From the NCBI RefSeq assembly GCF_022014595.1, contig NZ_CP091740.1, forward strand, positions 2,220,200-2,284,199: a stretch of 64,000 nt of DNA, written 5' to 3'. The DNA is from Solitalea lacus (GTDB taxonomy: Bacteria > Bacteroidota > Bacteroidia > Sphingobacteriales > Sphingobacteriaceae). Of this stretch, positions 18,094-24,973 are shown piece after piece. Every line of letters begins with the position of its first letter. Positions within the stretch are counted from its first letter, which is position 1. The notes beneath the pieces are model-generated. The model was not told the DNA's origin. It ran no database searches and was given only the letters and a program-made list of their open reading frames with translations. The position numbers and the translations under genes were made by a program.

Positions 18094-18112
18094 ATACTAA
18101 AAAAATTAGTAT
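18094..18112 (-). promoter_or_regulatory. Palindromic operator upstream of radical SAM gene
   Basis: ATACTA-N7-TAGTAT, 6-bp perfect arms and an A-rich 7-nt spacer. 17 of 19 bases match the palindrome at 24487 in front of the S24 regulator gene, including all arm bases. Confidence 0.65.
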
Positions 18113-18377
18113 TTTTTTTAAAATTGTCATGAACAAATTATTTGAAGGTACTATTTGTTAAAAGATGCTTTATGATTTTAATTGTCTGTAAAGTAGTGCT
18201 TTATATTGATTATTATGTGTAAATTAAAGTAGTGAATCGCATTCCGAACTCACTTTAGAAGCTTCATTATTAACTATTCTTTTAAATCATCGTTGTGAAA
18301 AAATCATTGCCTATGAAGCTGAAAGAGATGTTCGACCTGGCGGTTACAGGAGGATAATTCAAATCTAAATTTTACAT

Positions 18378-19646
18378 ATGCAACTAGCCTATACAAAACA
18401 TTTTAAGCACGCCTATCTTGTATTGGTTCTATTATTTAGCTATGAATTTAGTATAGCTCAGTCAAAAACTGATACCTTAATAAGTACACAAATTAAGGAT
18501 ATTGGTGACGTGCTCTTCAAGAAAAAGAAAAAAGATTCTATTAAGATTGCAGAAAAAAAGGATAGTTTCTTTCTTCTAATACCGGTTATTGGATCCCAGC
18601 CTGCTACTGGTTTTATGTTTGGCTTTACGGGGCAGTATACGTTTAAAGGACTGAAACCAGAGGATAAATATTCAACTATAAACCTTAACGCCACCTACAC
18701 TACTAAAGACCAATGGTTAATCAATATGAAAAATAATGTGCTGCTTTCCGGTAACAAAATTTTTCTAAGTGGCGATTGGCGTTTTTATATCTTTTCACAA
18801 CCCAATTATGGCTTAGGTACTGATATTATTCCCCCTGCAAAAGATGATGAAGGTTTTAGTCTTGATTCTTTGTCTCAGCCAATGGATTATAATTACATTA
18901 AATTTCACCAAACAGCATCCTGGCTTGTAAAGAACAACTTTTATGTAGGGGCCGGATTACATTTGGATGGCTATACAAGTATAGATGATAATAATTTAGA
19001 TACTGCCAACCAACGTTATACAGCACATTATAATTATAGCACCAAATATGGATTTGATCCGAAAAAGTATTATGTATATGGGGTAAGTTTAAATTTTCTT
19101 TACGACTCTCGAGATAACCAAATTAATCCTAATCATGGATTGTACGGTAACCTAAATTTCAGATTAAATCCCGCTATAGGAAAAAATGATTACACCAGTA
19201 CTGTGTTGTTTGCTGAAATGAGATATTTTAAACCATTAAGTAAAACTAATTTGCAACATGTGTGGGGTATTTGGGTATATGGTCAATTTGTAACCAGCGG
19301 AAAGGTGCCATATCTTAACTTACCATCAATTGGCTGGGATCAACGAAGTAGAGGAGGTAAAGGGTATACTCAGGGAGTATTCAGAGGAAATAATTTAGTG
19401 TATCTTGAAACTGAATATCGATTTCCAATAAGTAAAAACCAGTTGTTCAGTGGAACTGTATTTGGTGATTTTACCACAGCAAGCGATAAAGACCGCGATG
19501 TAAAACTGTTTGACTCAATACAGCCCGCTTTTGGAGTTGGATTTAGAATATTATTAGATAAAAAAACGAGAACAAACCTCATATTTAATTACGCTTGGGG
19601 ACGAAAATCAAAAGGATTTTATCTCAATGCCGGAGAATCATTCTAA
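18378..19646 (+). CDS. BamA/TamA-type outer membrane surface antigen-like barrel
   Basis: 422 residues. N-terminal signal sequence (hydrophobic HAYLVLVLLFSYEFSIAQS), a short lysine-rich linker, then a 16-strand-like barrel starting IPVIGSQPATGFMFGFTGQY. LYDSRDNQINPNHGLYGNLNFR is the Omp85-type strand pattern (usually DxRdn..P..G), and RGGKGYTQGVFRGNNLVYLETEYRFPI resembles the RGF-like/terminal barrel region. POTRA domains are absent, so it is a short barrel-only member; role unknown, possibly lipid or protein transport across the outer membrane. Monocistronic, terminator follows. Confidence 0.8.
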   Translation: MQLAYTKHFKHAYLVLVLLFSYEFSIAQSKTDTLISTQIKDIGDVLFKKKKKDSIKIAEKKDSFFLLIPVIGSQPATGFMFGFTGQYTFKGLKPEDKYSTINLNATYTTKDQWLINMKNNVLLSGNKIFLSGDWRFYIFSQPNYGLGTDIIPPAKDDEGFSLDSLSQPMDYNYIKFHQTASWLVKNNFYVGAGLHLDGYTSIDDNNLDTANQRYTAHYNYSTKYGFDPKKYYVYGVSLNFLYDSRDNQINPNHGLYGNLNFRLNPAIGKNDYTSTVLFAEMRYFKPLSKTNLQHVWGIWVYGQFVTSGKVPYLNLPSIGWDQRSRGGKGYTQGVFRGNNLVYLETEYRFPISKNQLFSGTVFGDFTTASDKDRDVKLFDSIQPAFGVGFRILLDKKTRTNLIFNYAWGRKSKGFYLNAGESF

Positions 19647-19684
19647 GGTCTGAAAGCAACTAAGAGTATACTTAATACTATAAT

Positions 19685-19735
19685 TATTTCGACTCTTTTG
19701 GTGGCTATAGGCCCATAAAGAGTCGAAATATTTTA
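19685..19735 (+). terminator. Terminator of the surface-antigen-like gene
   Basis: Perfect 14-bp stem TATTTCGACTCTTT / AAAGAGTCGAAATA (19685-19698 with 19717-19730), then TTTTATT. Confidence 0.8.
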
Positions 19736-19857
19736 TTGTTATGTAGTTGATATTTAGGTTTTTAAAATATTTTATGCAGGAAAGTTAGGGTTTTGTAGAC
19801 AAAAAGGCATATGTTTTGCGAGATATAGGGATAAATCAAACTAATCATCTGAAAGTA

Positions 19858-20256
19858 ATGCATAACATTAAGCCACGCCATACAATCATTGTAATTATAC
19901 TTTTGATCAGCGTTACATTGTTTACATGCAGTAAAAGTGATGCCGATACAGTGTCTTGTGATTTTTCTACCGAAAGCTACACAACTAACAACGATGGTAC
20001 AGTTACCTATACAGTTACCAAGGAAGGTAATGGCAGTACTATAAGCTCCATAACTTATAGAGGAACTGATGGAGTAATTACGGTTCCCAATCCAGGTGAT
20101 AATTTTACGTTAAGTGCTCCTGTGAAAAAAGGAACTGTAATTACACTTAACGTAAAAGGTACTGCCGTTGAAGGGCAGCTAAGGGCCCAATACAAATTCA
20201 TAAGCACTACCGGTACTGAGCAAGGAAATGCATTCAGAGCATGTCCAGGGGATTGA
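19858..20256 (+). CDS. Hypothetical lipoprotein
   Basis: 132 residues from the ATG at 19858. Lipoprotein signal IIVIILLISVTLFTCSKSD with the lipidated Cys near residue 24. The remaining ~100 residues are predicted beta-rich (YTTNNDGTVTYTVTKEGNGST), resembling a small immunoglobulin-like surface domain, but no family is recognised. An upstream TTG would add 14 residues ahead of the signal and was rejected. Confidence 0.7.
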   Translation: MHNIKPRHTIIVIILLISVTLFTCSKSDADTVSCDFSTESYTTNNDGTVTYTVTKEGNGSTISSITYRGTDGVITVPNPGDNFTLSAPVKKGTVITLNVKGTAVEGQLRAQYKFISTTGTEQGNAFRACPGD

Positions 20257-20290
20257 TTATCATGGAATAATCACAACAACCATTAGAAAC

Positions 20291-20671
20291 ATGAGTTTAC
20301 ACGATAAAATATTGGAAGTTTATCAATCTGTAAAGAGTTATCCTGATCTTGTCCAAAAGCTGATTGAATTAGGAATCCAATCTTATACAGTTGATGTAGC
20401 AACCGGTTCAATATTATATCGTTTAGCAGACGGGGAGAATTTATTGCATGTGGGTGAAGTTGATAATAGGTCAATTTTTGAGCGTTTTAGTGCTGATTTA
20501 ACTGTAATGGCAATCAGAGATAATCAACAAGGTAAAACCACATATCCTGAATTTATGCATGCAATAGGAGCTGCGGGGGTCAGATTTTATGAAGCAACAT
20601 TAACCGGTGAAAATAAACGTGTTACTTATATTGGATTTGGTGGATTCTATGAAGAATCTATTCCAATTTAA
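20291..20671 (+). CDS. DUF1398 family protein
   Basis: 126 residues starting MSLHDKILEVYQSVKSYPDLVQKLIELGIQSYTVDV. The pattern YPxFMHAIGAAGVRFYEATL and YIGFGGFYEESIP matches DUF1398 (once annotated as phage envelope-like protein); function unknown, small cytosolic protein. The open frame extends 21 codons upstream into the lipoprotein gene, but the family begins at this methionine. 34 bp after the lipoprotein stop. Confidence 0.8.
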   Translation: MSLHDKILEVYQSVKSYPDLVQKLIELGIQSYTVDVATGSILYRLADGENLLHVGEVDNRSIFERFSADLTVMAIRDNQQGKTTYPEFMHAIGAAGVRFYEATLTGENKRVTYIGFGGFYEESIPI

Positions 20672-20688
20672 ATTCATTCAGTCAATCT

Positions 20689-22314
20689 TTAATTTTTACT
20701 AAAGAGCATTTCTTCCAAACGGTTATCTTTTTTGTATACGTCTTTTCTGAAGTTTAATAAGCCGTTGTGATCAACAAAAGCCGTGAAGTAACCAATGTAC
20801 ACTGGCACTGACTTTTTTAAAGTAACATAGAGCTCCTGGTTTGCATTCATCGCTTCTGTAATCTTATCACTGGTCCATGTATTATCGTCCTTTAATAAAA
20901 GTTCAGCAAGTTTCTTTGGTTCGCTTACTCGAATGCATCCATGACTAAAAGCCCTTTGATCTTCTTTGAATAAAGATTTTGAAGGTGTATCGTGCAAATA
21001 AATATTATATGTATTTGGAAAGAGGAATTTTACCTGTCCAAGTGAATTTGTTGGGCCAGGAAGTTGCCTCAGCACCGGAAGTTGTCCCATATAGCCGGTA
21101 ATTTCCATGTTGTGGTCTCGTAAGTAATTACTGTTTTTACTCATTTCAGGTAATATTTCATTACGTGTTATGCTTGGCGGGACATTCCAATATGGGCTAA
21201 AAACAATATATCTTAAGTTTCCATTAAAAATTACAGTTTGATGCATCACCTTTCCAACTACCACATTACACCCCCATTCTAAAGTATCTGAATTGAATAT
21301 ATACAGCTTAAAGGCGGGGATGTTAATAATTATATGTTTTCCTTCAACCTTTTCCGGAACCCACCGGCTTCGTTCAATGTTTACCATTAGTTGTTTCAGG
21401 CGTTCACTTGGTTTTATATTCAGTTCATTGATAAATGAATTCCCAATTACTCCATCGGCAGTTAAACCATGTCTGGTTTGAAATTGCTTTGTTGCCATTA
21501 TTAATTCAGCATCAAATAATGGATTTTTATTATCTTTTTTTAGGTCTCCCAATAAAAACAAACGATGGCGTATTGCTAAAAGTAAGGATGATGAGTCGCC
21601 TGGGTTATAAGTTTTTTGATCAAGTTTTAGTGACTCCCAGTTCTCATTTGTTGTCAGCTTGCGATACAGCTTCAAATTATCCTTCAGTAAATCATATTGA
21701 CGAAAAACTGGTGTTTTGCTTAAAACATTTGATGCAGGTTGGTTAATTATATCTTCCAGTTGTTTCTGAAAGTCAATCTTTTTTCTCGGAAGGAACCACT
21801 CTAACTCTTGCATCTCCTTGTCGTTTACAGAACCTTGCCATGCAATTTTTGAAAAAGCAAAATAGGCGCCGGTAAGCATTAATTCCGTAGTAGCATCCGG
21901 TTTATTGTTTATTATGGAGTGTATAAGTGAATCAAGCTTGCTGTCATAAGGTATTTTTCCGTTTAAACCTTCTTCATCTAAGTGTTGAACCCGATTGTTT
22001 AAATTACTAGCCTGCTCAATTAAACCTTTACGATCAAACCAAGCAAAGGCAAAATTTCTATTCTTATAAAATTTAGTAATATCCGTCTGATAGGAGGAAA
22101 GTAATGGGTATTTATTGATGAAATTATTTAAAGTTATGCTGTCTAAGTGAATAGCAGTTTGGGAACTGTAGTTACCAGGGATGGTTCTATTCCAGTTTGA
22201 TACATTTATGATCGTATCGACAGGTTTCAGGTTGGGTTTGTTATGTTTTCCAACACAGGATGAGAGTAAAACAGGAAATAGGGTGTATAAAATTATGGTT
22301 GTTTTTAATTTCAT
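20689..22314 (-). CDS. L,D-transpeptidase (YcbB/LdtD type), lipoprotein
   Basis: 541 residues. Lipoprotein signal ending LFPVLLSSCVGK; a scaffold domain; a peptidoglycan-binding-like domain around residues 230-290 (DAELIMATKQFQTRHGLTAD); and a YkuD catalytic domain with the active-site motif SHGCIRVSEP (His/Cys) near residue 455. Such enzymes form 3-3 cross-links or attach lipoproteins in the periplasm. The subdomain order matches the LdtD/YcbB family. Own -7 element upstream; convergent with the DUF1398 gene. Confidence 0.92.
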   Translation of the reverse strand: MKLKTTIILYTLFPVLLSSCVGKHNKPNLKPVDTIINVSNWNRTIPGNYSSQTAIHLDSITLNNFINKYPLLSSYQTDITKFYKNRNFAFAWFDRKGLIEQASNLNNRVQHLDEEGLNGKIPYDSKLDSLIHSIINNKPDATTELMLTGAYFAFSKIAWQGSVNDKEMQELEWFLPRKKIDFQKQLEDIINQPASNVLSKTPVFRQYDLLKDNLKLYRKLTTNENWESLKLDQKTYNPGDSSSLLLAIRHRLFLLGDLKKDNKNPLFDAELIMATKQFQTRHGLTADGVIGNSFINELNIKPSERLKQLMVNIERSRWVPEKVEGKHIIINIPAFKLYIFNSDTLEWGCNVVVGKVMHQTVIFNGNLRYIVFSPYWNVPPSITRNEILPEMSKNSNYLRDHNMEITGYMGQLPVLRQLPGPTNSLGQVKFLFPNTYNIYLHDTPSKSLFKEDQRAFSHGCIRVSEPKKLAELLLKDDNTWTSDKITEAMNANQELYVTLKKSVPVYIGYFTAFVDHNGLLNFRKDVYKKDNRLEEMLFSKN

Positions 22315-22338
22315 AGAGTGAAATTTGCAGTCAAGCTA

Positions 22339-22346
22339 CAAATGTA
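22339..22346 (-). promoter_or_regulatory. -7 promoter element of the L,D-transpeptidase gene
   Basis: TACATTTG on the minus strand, exact TAnnTTTG, 24 nt upstream of the ATG. Confidence 0.5.
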
Positions 22347-22446
22347 TTATCATTTTTAAAACTCTATGGATAATTGTTGGAAGGGATAAATGCTTTCTTG
22401 TAATATGCACATAATCAAGTTGCTTATGTGAGTTTTGGAAAAAATA

Positions 22447-22592
22447 TTTTGCTAATTCAAATTAATGCTCTACTTTAGCGCCTAGGAAAAAGAGTATAAG
22501 TTATATTTTATATTCCTTCCATTATTCTTTTTCTTTTGGTTTAGGTTAAATTAAAGGAGTTGACACTTCCCAGGTTTCAACTCCTTTTTTTA
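22447..22592 (+). ncRNA. Candidate small RNA on the plus strand
   Basis: The gap between two minus-strand genes holds, on the plus strand, TTTTG (22447) and TACTTTAG (22471; one mismatch to the -7 consensus) spaced 19 nt, and about 80 nt later an 11-bp hairpin (22553-22563 with 22577-22587) followed by seven T. The T run favours plus-strand termination although no plus-strand gene precedes it. Transcript would be about 105 nt. The hairpin may instead be a weak minus-strand insulator. Low confidence. Confidence 0.3.
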
Positions 22593-22597
22593 TTTCA

Positions 22598-23002
22598 CTA
22601 ATTTGAACCGTTGTTTGCAGGAGATTCATTGCCTTTCTGGTTTTGTGTTCTGCTTTTCATCTTTTCCATGCGTTCTTTTTTCAAAACTTCATAATCGGCC
22701 CATTGCTTTTCAGTTAAAACCGCTTTTAATGCAGTCTCTTTTTCTTCGTTAATTTTCTTCATGCCTTCCATCATGGCTGCACGGTCGCCCGCATTGGCTT
22801 CCCTTAATTCATCTACTTTCTTTGCGGAACTTAAATTAATTTCATGAACTTTTTTTTGCTGATCATCGGTTAATGCTAGCTTTTTGGTAAGCTGCTGGGT
22901 TTGCATCGAAGCTCTTTCCTCTGCACTGCGAGGTTGTCTTTCTTGAGCAAACATGGTTGTTGCAATTAATAAAGTGACAATTGCTAAAGCTAATTTTTTC
23001 AT
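22598..23002 (-). CDS. Spy/LTXXQ-like periplasmic protein
   Basis: 134 residues with a signal peptide (MKKLALAIVTLLIATTMFAQ). The mature part is helical and charged, with LTKKLALTDDQQKKVHEIN and ALKAVLTEKQWADYEVLKK, the two LTxxQ-like repeats of Spy/CpxP-type proteins. Spy-like proteins are periplasmic chaperones or metal/stress sensors; specific role here not known. Low-complexity tail rich in Asn and Lys. Confidence 0.75.
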   Translation of the reverse strand: MKKLALAIVTLLIATTMFAQERQPRSAEERASMQTQQLTKKLALTDDQQKKVHEINLSSAKKVDELREANAGDRAAMMEGMKKINEEKETALKAVLTEKQWADYEVLKKERMEKMKSRTQNQKGNESPANNGSN

Positions 23003-23081
23003 TTCTATTGTTCTTTTGCTTTTGAGTTTTATTTATAAAAAAGGTTTAATGTAAAATGAAAAAAAAATAGCTGGTGATTAA

Positions 23082-23645
23082 TTATATATTATTCGTTTTA
23101 GTTGATAGCAATGTGAAAATGGCCGAATCGAAAAATTTGCCATTGTAGTAATAGTTCTCTTTAAAATAGGCTTCTTGCCTAAACCCTGTTTTTTTTAGCA
23201 ATTTTATTGATGCCAAATTGTTTGGATTGACATTGGCTTCAATAGAATGGAATTTGATGTTATTGAAACCATAGCTGATTACTTTCATCAAAGCTTCAAA
23301 CATCAAACCATTATTCCAGTAATTGGGGTGAAGTAAATAGCCAATTTCGGCTCGGTGATGTTCTTTGATTATTCGCCAAAATCCTATTGTTCCGATCAAT
23401 TGATTGTTGCCTTTTAAAGTAATAGCCCAGTTGATCCCTTCATTTTCAGCAAAGGAATCAACTATCTTTTGAATCAGTGTTTCTATTTCTTGGATATCAC
23501 TGGGTGGCTCGCGGTCTAAATACTTTAATACTTGGTCATTGCTTCTTAATTCAAACAAAGCAATGCTGTCAGAATGGTCAATAGCCCTAAGGTTTAACCT
23601 AGGGGTTGAGAGTATAGGGAACGAATCAAACTTTATGTCCAGCAT
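23082..23645 (-). CDS. GNAT acetyltransferase, RimJ/RimL type
   Basis: 187 residues. Starts with LSTPRLNLRAIDHSDSIALFELRSN, the Acetyltransf_3 pattern, and has RAEIGYLLHPNYWNNGLMFEALMKVISYGF and ANVNPNNLASIKLLKKTGFRQEAYFKEN. RimJ/L relatives acetylate protein N-termini or small molecules; substrate unknown. It starts 21 bp after the stop of the S24 regulator gene on the same strand, so the two are probably co-transcribed. Confidence 0.88.
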   Translation of the reverse strand: MLDIKFDSFPILSTPRLNLRAIDHSDSIALFELRSNDQVLKYLDREPPSDIQEIETLIQKIVDSFAENEGINWAITLKGNNQLIGTIGFWRIIKEHHRAEIGYLLHPNYWNNGLMFEALMKVISYGFNNIKFHSIEANVNPNNLASIKLLKKTGFRQEAYFKENYYYNGKFFDSAIFTLLSTKTNNI

Positions 23646-23666
23646 TACCGAAAAGTTGCTAAAAAG

Positions 23667-24464
23667 TTAATCATTTGGCTTTAGTTTGGTAACAGTCTTT
23701 TGTAATTGCTCTACCATTTCGGTTAGTTTTTCGAGTGAAGGTTCAATTGCTGGGGTAGGGAAGGCTGTGCTTATGAAGGCTTTGGCTTTCCATATTTCAA
23801 GCACATCGCTGGCATTGATGCTGTAAGTTTCATAGGCTTTGTTGTCTGATGCAAGGTACAAGCGTTGGTTTTCTTTGATTTTATTGGTTACGCGTTTGTA
23901 AACAATGCCTTCATCTTTGCTTAGTACAACATATGTATCACCTGATTTAATATCACCAAAGTTCTCTATGTATTCTCCAACTACAATGGTTCCTGGTTCT
24001 AATGGAAGCATGGAGTCTCCCTTTAATTCAAATGCCCTGAATGTTCCTCCTTTTAAGAACGGGAGATGGAACTTTGGTAGCTCTGCTACATATTGGGGGT
24101 CGGCATAACCGTTTAAATAGCCTGCACTTGCTTTGGCCGGGATTAATTCAATGTTTTCATTTTGATCCTTATCTACAGTAATACTTAAAACCCGGAGGCC
24201 GCCACTTGTTTTGTTTTTCTCCTCTTCTGCAGCTTTTTCCTTTTTAGCAAACCATTTATCGGTTATTCTTTCCGAAATCAATTCATCAACTGAAATGCTA
24301 AATAAATTAGCCATCTTAAGAAGTAGTTCTGTTTTTGGTTCTGCCCGATCTTCTTCGTATGCACCAATAACAGCCCGTTTAACTTCTAGATTGTCAGCTA
24401 ATTGCTGTTGCGTAAGTCCTTGTTTTTTGCGCAGGTATTTTAAGTTTTGTGAGATAGTGCCCAT
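23667..24464 (-). CDS. LexA-like regulator: XRE HTH plus S24 peptidase
   Basis: 265 residues from the ATG (MGTISQNLKYLRKKQG); the frame extends four codons upstream only through a TTG. N-terminal HTH_3 (about 4-58; LTQQQLADNLEVKRAVIGAYE), a lysine/glutamate-rich linker, then a S24 domain with GDSMLPLEPG (Ser151) and IVYKRV (Lys190), the Ser-Lys dyad of self-cleaving repressors, and a candidate Ala114-Gly115 scissile bond in KASAGY. This predicts RecA-stimulated self-cleavage, as in LexA/CI. The palindrome at 24487 suggests autorepression. Divergent from a GIY-YIG-like gene. Confidence 0.9.
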   Translation of the reverse strand: MGTISQNLKYLRKKQGLTQQQLADNLEVKRAVIGAYEEDRAEPKTELLLKMANLFSISVDELISERITDKWFAKKEKAAEEEKNKTSGGLRVLSITVDKDQNENIELIPAKASAGYLNGYADPQYVAELPKFHLPFLKGGTFRAFELKGDSMLPLEPGTIVVGEYIENFGDIKSGDTYVVLSKDEGIVYKRVTNKIKENQRLYLASDNKAYETYSINASDVLEIWKAKAFISTAFPTPAIEPSLEKLTEMVEQLQKTVTKLKPND

Positions 24465-24486
24465 GAATTTTGCCAAAAATTTTATA

Positions 24487-24505
24487 ATACTAAAAATAAT
24501 AGTAT
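24487..24505. promoter_or_regulatory. Palindromic operator between regulator and GIY-YIG gene
   Basis: ATACTA-N7-TAGTAT, perfect 6-bp arms. It lies 23 nt upstream of the regulator ATG and directly abuts the -7 box of the divergent gene, so a bound dimer would cover both promoters. Confidence 0.65.
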
Positions 24506-24512
24506 ATATTTG
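24505..24512 (+). promoter_or_regulatory. -7 promoter element of the GIY-YIG-like gene
   Basis: TATATTTG, exact TAnnTTTG, sharing its first base with the operator; a TTTTA at about 24480 stands where a -33 element is expected. Confidence 0.5.
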
Positions 24513-24583
24513 CTAATAAAGTTAGTGACAATTTCGGGATTATCAAGAAATAAATAAAAATAGATTTTAAAAGAAAAACGATT

Positions 24584-24973
24584 ATGGCACTTTTCAATAA
24601 CACTTCAAGAATTAATTCAGCTGGTAGCAAACGTTACATCTATTTTATGACTGATCGTAATCGCTCAAGTATTATAGTTGGAACCAGTGATGATTTAATA
24701 AACACCATCAATAAATTCAGAGCAATTCCGACCTTGCATTTCGATGCTTCTGGACACTATTCACGTTTGGTGTATTTTGAGGAGTTTGAAAATGAAGTGT
24801 TATTACAAAAACGTTTATTGATATTACAACATCTTACCAAAGCACAAAAAGAGAAAATTATTCGTTCGGTGAACGCTGACTGGGTTGATCTTTCCTTAGG
24901 AGTTGATTTTGAAAATATATTAGATCCGAAGTTTCCCCGTACCAATTTCAGGTATACAGCTGTTGCATGTTAA
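24584..24973 (+). CDS. Degenerate GIY-YIG domain protein
   Basis: 129 residues. The fold pattern KRYIYFMTDRNRSSIIVGTSDDLINTIN, then RLVYFEEFENEVLLQKRLLILQHLTKAQKEKIIRSVNADWVDLS, matches small Bacteroidota GIY-YIG proteins, including the closing N-x-W-x-DLS. The first motif reads YIY (normal) but the second reads IVG rather than YIG, and the catalytic arginine after it is not evident, so nuclease activity is doubtful. Divergent from the LexA-like gene with a shared operator, so it is likely co-regulated. Confidence 0.75.
   Translation: MALFNNTSRINSAGSKRYIYFMTDRNRSSIIVGTSDDLINTINKFRAIPTLHFDASGHYSRLVYFEEFENEVLLQKRLLILQHLTKAQKEKIIRSVNADWVDLSLGVDFENILDPKFPRTNFRYTAVAC

Follow-up and report, generated by a model that had tools for sequence, protein, structure and literature searches.

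The window analysed here is a 64,000-nucleotide stretch of the Solitalea lacus contig NZ_CP091740.1 (positions 2,220,200 to 2,284,199). Within it, two copies of a 19-bp palindrome, ATACTA-N7-TAGTAT, precede two genes of the minus strand, one encoding a regulator with helix-turn-helix (HTH) and peptidase S24 domains (here called lexA) and the other a PA0069-type radical S-adenosylmethionine (SAM) protein (Table 1). Both copies had been noticed in a sequence-only reading, which took them for a LexA/CI-like operator. The genes that it named as lying downstream are indeed the S24 regulator gene and the PA0069-type gene, and its placement of the copies is exact, with identical 6-bp arms and 17 of 19 bases equal. 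One copy lies 9 bp upstream of the radical SAM ATG (18084), and the other lies 22 bp upstream of the lexA ATG (24464). A small gene whose product is predicted to have a GIY-YIG fold diverges from lexA, and the promoter region between the two contains an additional operator core.

Table 1. Genes and predicted regulatory sites at the lexA and radical SAM loci (positions in the window).
Feature	Position	Strand	Remarks
PA0069-family radical SAM protein, 353 amino acids	17023..18084	-	predicted SOS-regulated; NCBIfam NF033668, 482.9 bits (cut-off 360)
LexA-type operator (predicted), radical SAM gene	18094..18112	.	ATACTA-N7-TAGTAT; core CTAA-AAAAA-TTAG at 18097-18109; supported by ortholog promoters
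Non-canonical LexA, HTH_3 + peptidase S24, 265 amino acids	23667..24464	-	domains by Pfam; predicted cleavage at Ala114-Gly115, Ser151/Lys190 dyad
GCTAA-N5-TTAGC inside the lexA coding sequence	24297..24311	.	present in four Solitalea genomes
Proximal lexA operator (predicted), second palindrome copy	24487..24505	.	core CTAA-N5-ATAG, which departs from CTAA-N5-TTAG by one dyad base
-7 box match TATATTTG	24505..24512	+	fits Bacteroidetes TAnnTTTG; abuts the distal operator core on the GIY strand
Distal perfect operator core CTAA-N5-TTAG, lexA/GIY divergent promoter	24513..24525	.	contig 2244711-2244725; overlooked in the sequence-only reading
GIY-YIG-fold protein (predicted), 129 amino acids, divergent from lexA	24584..24973	+	T41 and L78 at the expected positions of the catalytic Arg and Glu

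As the sequence-only reading had noted by eye, there is no further perfect copy. A scan for ATACTA-N7-TAGTAT found two occurrences in all and no third, either in the window or in the whole 4,402,230-bp genome, and the reversed-pattern control gave 0. The number of perfect copies expected from the base composition of the window is 1.56 per genome and 0.023 per window, and a first-order Markov model gives 0.30 and 0.004, respectively. Since two copies are close to the base-composition expectation, the case is built on position and on conservation in orthologous promoters and not on rarity. The shorter pattern TACTA-N7-TAGTA with one mismatch allowed had 174 matches in the genome against 457 for its control, a search that is informative only in its nine exact sites.

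The comparison of orthologous promoters supports an operator of the LexA/CI type but shows that the full ATACTA-N7-TAGTAT string is not the conserved unit: conservation covers the core CTAA-N5-TTAG but does not reach the outermost A of the arm. This core, which the radical SAM palindrome of the window contains exactly, is found in 20 of 20 radical SAM promoters from the same bacterial family, the Sphingobacteriaceae (the window's own and three more from Solitalea included), and in 0 of 10 from other bacterial families; one further radical SAM match was left out of the set. In all 30 promoters the control patterns (spacings of N2, N3, N4, N6, N7 and N8, four other arm sequences, and GGA-N5-TCC) gave 0 matches. 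The eight dyad bases are invariant among the 20 same-family promoters, each of the five spacer bases may be A or T, every promoter has a T at position -2, and agreement across the flank (-15 to -5) averages 48%. The 78.5 kb of these 20 loci contain one other CTAA-N5-TTAG. In eight of the 20 promoters, the sequence TAnnTTTG, which is given in the available text of PMC9723704 as the -7 box of the flavobacterial sigma A, starts right after the operator core (at an offset of 13 in seven promoters and 14 in one). In seven promoters (L087, L090, L091, L094, L096, L098 and L102), the -7 box lies about 3–5 bp from an ATG, and their radical SAM transcripts would be nearly leaderless.

The same core precedes lexA well beyond Solitalea. 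Of 30 genome loci, the window's own included, 29 have it ahead of the lexA ortholog (the thirtieth, L044, was unparsed and is not a scored miss), as do 77 of 80 named loci, reaching orthologs of 46% identity in Hymenobacter; the two sets overlap, with some genomes present in both. The named loci that lack it are L203, L206 and L208, the last of which is a Clostridia contig matching the HTH alone. In the window, the copy next to lexA reads CTAA-AAATA-ATAG, one dyad base away from the core, and the perfect distal core lies 23 bp from it on the side away from lexA. The distal core is conserved in three other Solitalea loci and in genomes G009 and G033. The proximal core has the same one-base deviation in all four Solitalea genomes, and the outer arm of the proximal palindrome also differs in the other Solitalea. 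G009 and G033 have two perfect cores at the same 23-bp spacing.

The product of the lexA gene has the domain make-up of a non-canonical LexA. Pfam assigns an HTH domain to its N-terminus (PF01381, E 2.2e-14) and an S24 peptidase domain to its C-terminus (PF00717, E 1.2e-7); at an E-value of 0.001 the domains reported are HTH_3, HTH_19, HTH_31 and Peptidase_S24, and the winged-helix domain of canonical LexA (PF01726) is not among them. Orthologs were defined by best hits together with the shared motif, and an alignment places Ala114, Gly115, Ser151 and Lys190, all four, in 79 of 79 named orthologs. Identity is 89% in three genomes of the same genus, and the same value was obtained on the named S. 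longa and S. agri contigs. The listed matches of the S24 protein to solved structures cover only its HTH part. The same N-terminal part is all that PADLOC matched in the regulator, and PADLOC returned nothing for the radical SAM or GIY proteins. A recA gene is present in the genome.

These features correspond to a described system. One group of Bacteroidetes non-canonical LexA proteins binds CTAA-N5-TTAG (Sanchez-Osuna et al., 2021; PMC8565304). According to the available text of that study, the regulator was examined by electrophoretic mobility shift assay (EMSA) with dyad mutants and by mitomycin C induction in reverse transcription quantitative PCR, and large CTAA-N5-TTAG regulons occur in families including the Sphingobacteriaceae, with splB in the core regulon. 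To the extent of that text, the S. lacus system has in common with it the HTH_3 and S24 domains, the Ala-Gly and Ser-Lys residues, autoregulation (predicted here) and the motif, as well as dinB, ruvB, a splB-type radical SAM gene and a DnaQ-like exonuclease containing a GIY-YIG domain. Unlike the system described in those parts of the study, Solitalea has two tandem lexA sites, one with a dyad mismatch. The main text of PMC8565304 does not name Solitalea, and no mention of the small GIY-YIG gene divergent from lexA was found in its available parts.

Radical SAM genes have been reported, in the accessible portions of the respective papers, in SOS regulons or SOS gene neighbourhoods of Gram-positives and Balneolaeota (PMC7739468), of Streptomyces (PMC9380542) and more widely (PMC3765255). 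The systems of the first two papers have a radical SAM gene in the LexA regulon, as here, but are described there as classical LexA regulons with other motifs. The predicted regulon is a new instance of the system of PMC8565304, splB-type radical SAM genes included. The described SOS system is in this way documented in Solitalea, and the detail added is the pair of tandem lexA operators, one of which is kept imperfect in four genomes.

With a probability of about 0.93, we consider the palindromes to be operators of this non-canonical LexA, which would regulate an SOS set and be cleaved under RecA stimulation upon DNA damage. In undamaged cells, a LexA dimer would occupy CTAA-N5-TTAG sites directly adjoining the -7 promoter box, and because of this position the bound dimer would block the promoter. 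The genes repressed would be lexA itself, the GIY-YIG-type gene divergent from it and the radical SAM gene, together with dinB-dnaE2, ruvB and the gene for the DnaQ-GIY exonuclease at other places in the genome. After damage, RecA filaments would stimulate self-cleavage at Ala114-Gly115, and the set would be derepressed. The sites, their positions and their conservation are direct observations, as are the domain make-up and the catalytic residues of the regulator. Binding, repression and induction by damage are expected by analogy with the relatives tested in the accessible part of PMC8565304, and RecA-stimulated cleavage is predicted from the S24 family and its residues. Two palindromes in one window were enough to recognise a damage-repressor regulon, and conservation confirms it.

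The extended pattern RCTAA-N5-TTAGY occurs at 31 distinct places in the genome (23 and 8 from two scans), and nine of these do not overlap an open reading frame (ORF) of at least 120 amino acids. Five of the nine have an ORF start within 60 bp, namely the sites at lexA/GIY, the radical SAM gene, dinB-dnaE2, ruvB and the DnaQ-GIY exonuclease gene; the genes were named by eye, and the GIY-YIG domain of the DnaQ-type exonuclease was identified by PF01541. The lexA, radical SAM, dinB and dnaQ-GIY sites recur in each of three other Solitalea genomes, where the pattern was found at 60 distinct places, of which 51 were sorted and nine are the known lexA, lexA-intragenic and radical SAM sites. Genome G002 has extra sites at two genes that were identified by eye as UmuC-like and RecQ-like. 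The GCTAA-N5-TTAGC site within lexA was considered as an internal operator, but its conservation may reflect the peptide that it encodes, ANLFS; this peptide differs in the non-Solitalea loci where the stretch was located, which is a weak test with only 16 of 109 loci.

Several observations weigh against this interpretation. The lexA-proximal copy carries a dyad mismatch, and dyad changes abolished binding in the published EMSA (PMC8565304, in its available part). Twenty-two of the 31 sites overlap an ORF of the length given above, and four of the remaining sites (3358554, 2769504, 4263963 and 4308095) lack an ORF start in the nearest 60 bp. Across the genome the motif shows no enrichment: it had 18 and 16 matches against 35 and 37 for the reversed-pattern control, and 8 against 10, and the counts in the other Solitalea genomes were 16, 28 and 16 against 44, 64 and 43. 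Since these counts lie below the control, over-representation was dropped as a line of evidence. The only site at recA carries one mismatch and lies about 100 bp upstream, the ruvB site is found by the strict pattern in two of four Solitalea genomes (this one and G002), and no exact TAnnTTTG is present in 12 of the 20 family radical SAM promoters, that of the window among them.

The absence of enrichment, together with the 1.56 copies expected per genome, would also be compatible with A/T-rich dyads or short hairpins that stand upstream of two genes by chance. We regard this as extremely unlikely, given that the dyad is invariant and the spacer variable in all 20 family radical SAM promoters, that it lies near the start codon in each, that the control patterns gave 0 and that a site is present in 77 of 80 lexA promoters. 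The regulator could also be autoregulated at these sites in response to a signal other than DNA damage, as a phage-CI-like or other stress switch, and its CI/HTH_3-like N-terminal domain would fit such a role; however, its targets are SOS genes (dinB-dnaE2, ruvB and dnaQ-GIY), and a related regulator with the same motif and its genes are induced by mitomycin according to the accessible text of PMC8565304, which makes such a signal very unlikely.

It is likewise very unlikely that the main binder is another HTH protein instead of the S24 protein. The candidate is a 91-amino-acid HTH-only protein related to the N-terminus of LexA (L127:5016-5288, contig about 1960015-1960287), possibly a non-cleavable LexA relative, whose gene diverges from dinB-dnaE2 and shares an operator with it. 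This arrangement was seen in no genome other than this one, G001 and G003, whereas the sites and the S24 regulator co-occur throughout the family. In seven other genomes with HTH-only matches (L275-L281), no dinB was seen within the 4–5 kb available around each. The HTH-only gene at dinB was therefore treated as confined to part of Solitalea and rejected as a general feature. A small gene that follows the HTH-only gene is resembled by one at L126:7582-7902, which has an operator-like site, TACTAATATTATTAGTA, upstream at about L126:8054-8070; no HTH gene was seen there.

LexA as the binder would also control the small gene that diverges from lexA. A relative of its product is encoded in 27 of 30 genome loci, adjoining lexA in 26 and displaced by more than 1 kb in G002, and it is present at 52 of the 79 named loci; Hymenobacter accounts for 24 of the 27 named loci that lack it, and in one more the upstream sequence is just 77 bp long. 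In eight of 29 loci, a perfect operator separate from that of lexA lies 20–29 bp before the start of the GIY gene. The window protein alone had no Pfam match at an E-value of 0.001. PF01541 matched 23 of 30 family members at E-values up to 1 (best 1.2e-4), and hhalign gave 98.7% against 26 genuine GIY-YIG domains (taken from 26 of the 30 loci at hand). A sequence search of the PDB returned one match, which is unrelated (E 1.3). The predicted model has a mean predicted local distance difference test score (pLDDT) of 74. Its best Foldseek match is 1zg2 (UPF0213) at an E-value of 1.4e-3, with none below 0.001, and VIA gave Z scores of 7.0 to 1zg2 and 7.4 to Slx1, which the tool grades as middling (Z under 8). 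Judging from the predicted model, the fold is that of GIY-YIG proteins.

In fold, the family resembles other GIY-YIG proteins (UPF0213, Slx1 and the UvrC N-terminal domain), but it differs from them at what we take to be the catalytic positions, with alignment columns mapped by eye. The Glu is missing from 30 of 30 members, the Arg from 28 of 30 (two retain it) and the tyrosine of the YIG motif from 30 of 30, and the protein is predicted from its sequence to be catalytically inactive. We tentatively suggest, as a possibility that is more doubtful than probable, that the SOS regulon of the Sphingobacteriaceae includes a dead GIY-YIG protein as a standing member, which would be made upon damage and would bind branched or nicked DNA but leave it uncut, for example to shield such DNA from UvrC or from the SOS-regulated DnaQ-GIY exonuclease, or to guide these enzymes. 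A literature search on GIY-YIG, LexA and Bacteroidetes found, in the accessible parts of the sources, mention only of the exonuclease with a GIY-YIG domain and not of the small divergent gene. This inactive-looking partner of lexA is a concrete unknown that is cheap to test.

The sequence-only reading had also linked the damage regulon to photoproduct-type chemistry. The regulon is supported by the comparative data, but the link to photoproducts comes down to a distant family resemblance. The single radical SAM protein matched no spore photoproduct lyase chain of the PDB at E-values up to 10, and a profile of the family reached the photoproduct lyases there at E-values of 0.6–0.9 only. With TIGR04070, the NCBIfam model for spore photoproduct lyase, 10 of 16 members gave matches at E-values up to 0.01 (best 1.6e-8), but the window protein did not. 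The three Cys residues of CxxxCxxC are invariant across the 16 sequences. NCBIfam labels NF033668 a hypothetical equivalog, and a literature search for PA0069 together with radical SAM found nothing. We know of no reaction for the PA0069 family, which we take to fall in COG1533. The SOS-regulated radical SAM gene in the available part of PMC8565304 is SplB, of COG1533. The case that PA0069-family enzymes act on damaged DNA is strengthened because the operator is retained at all 20 of their promoters examined in this bacterial family.

Outside this bacterial family, GGA-N5-TCC was rejected as a radical SAM operator (0 of 10 promoters). Two of these ten genomes, G039 and G051, have no S24 match. 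The 20 S24 promoters outside the family yielded no single alternative motif; several have other N5 dyads and eight have none. One other-family genome (G040, locus L109) has its radical SAM and S24 genes side by side in divergent orientation, and TTGACAA-N5-TTGTCAA lies in the stretch that separates them. This arrangement is independent evidence of a connection between the two genes, and the dyad is consistent with the diverged dyads in the accessible text of PMC8565304. Among the Solitalea genomes, an operator-like site is shared by two uncharacterised divergent ORFs (210 and 171 amino acids as fetched) at L232 in G001 and at L239 in G003.

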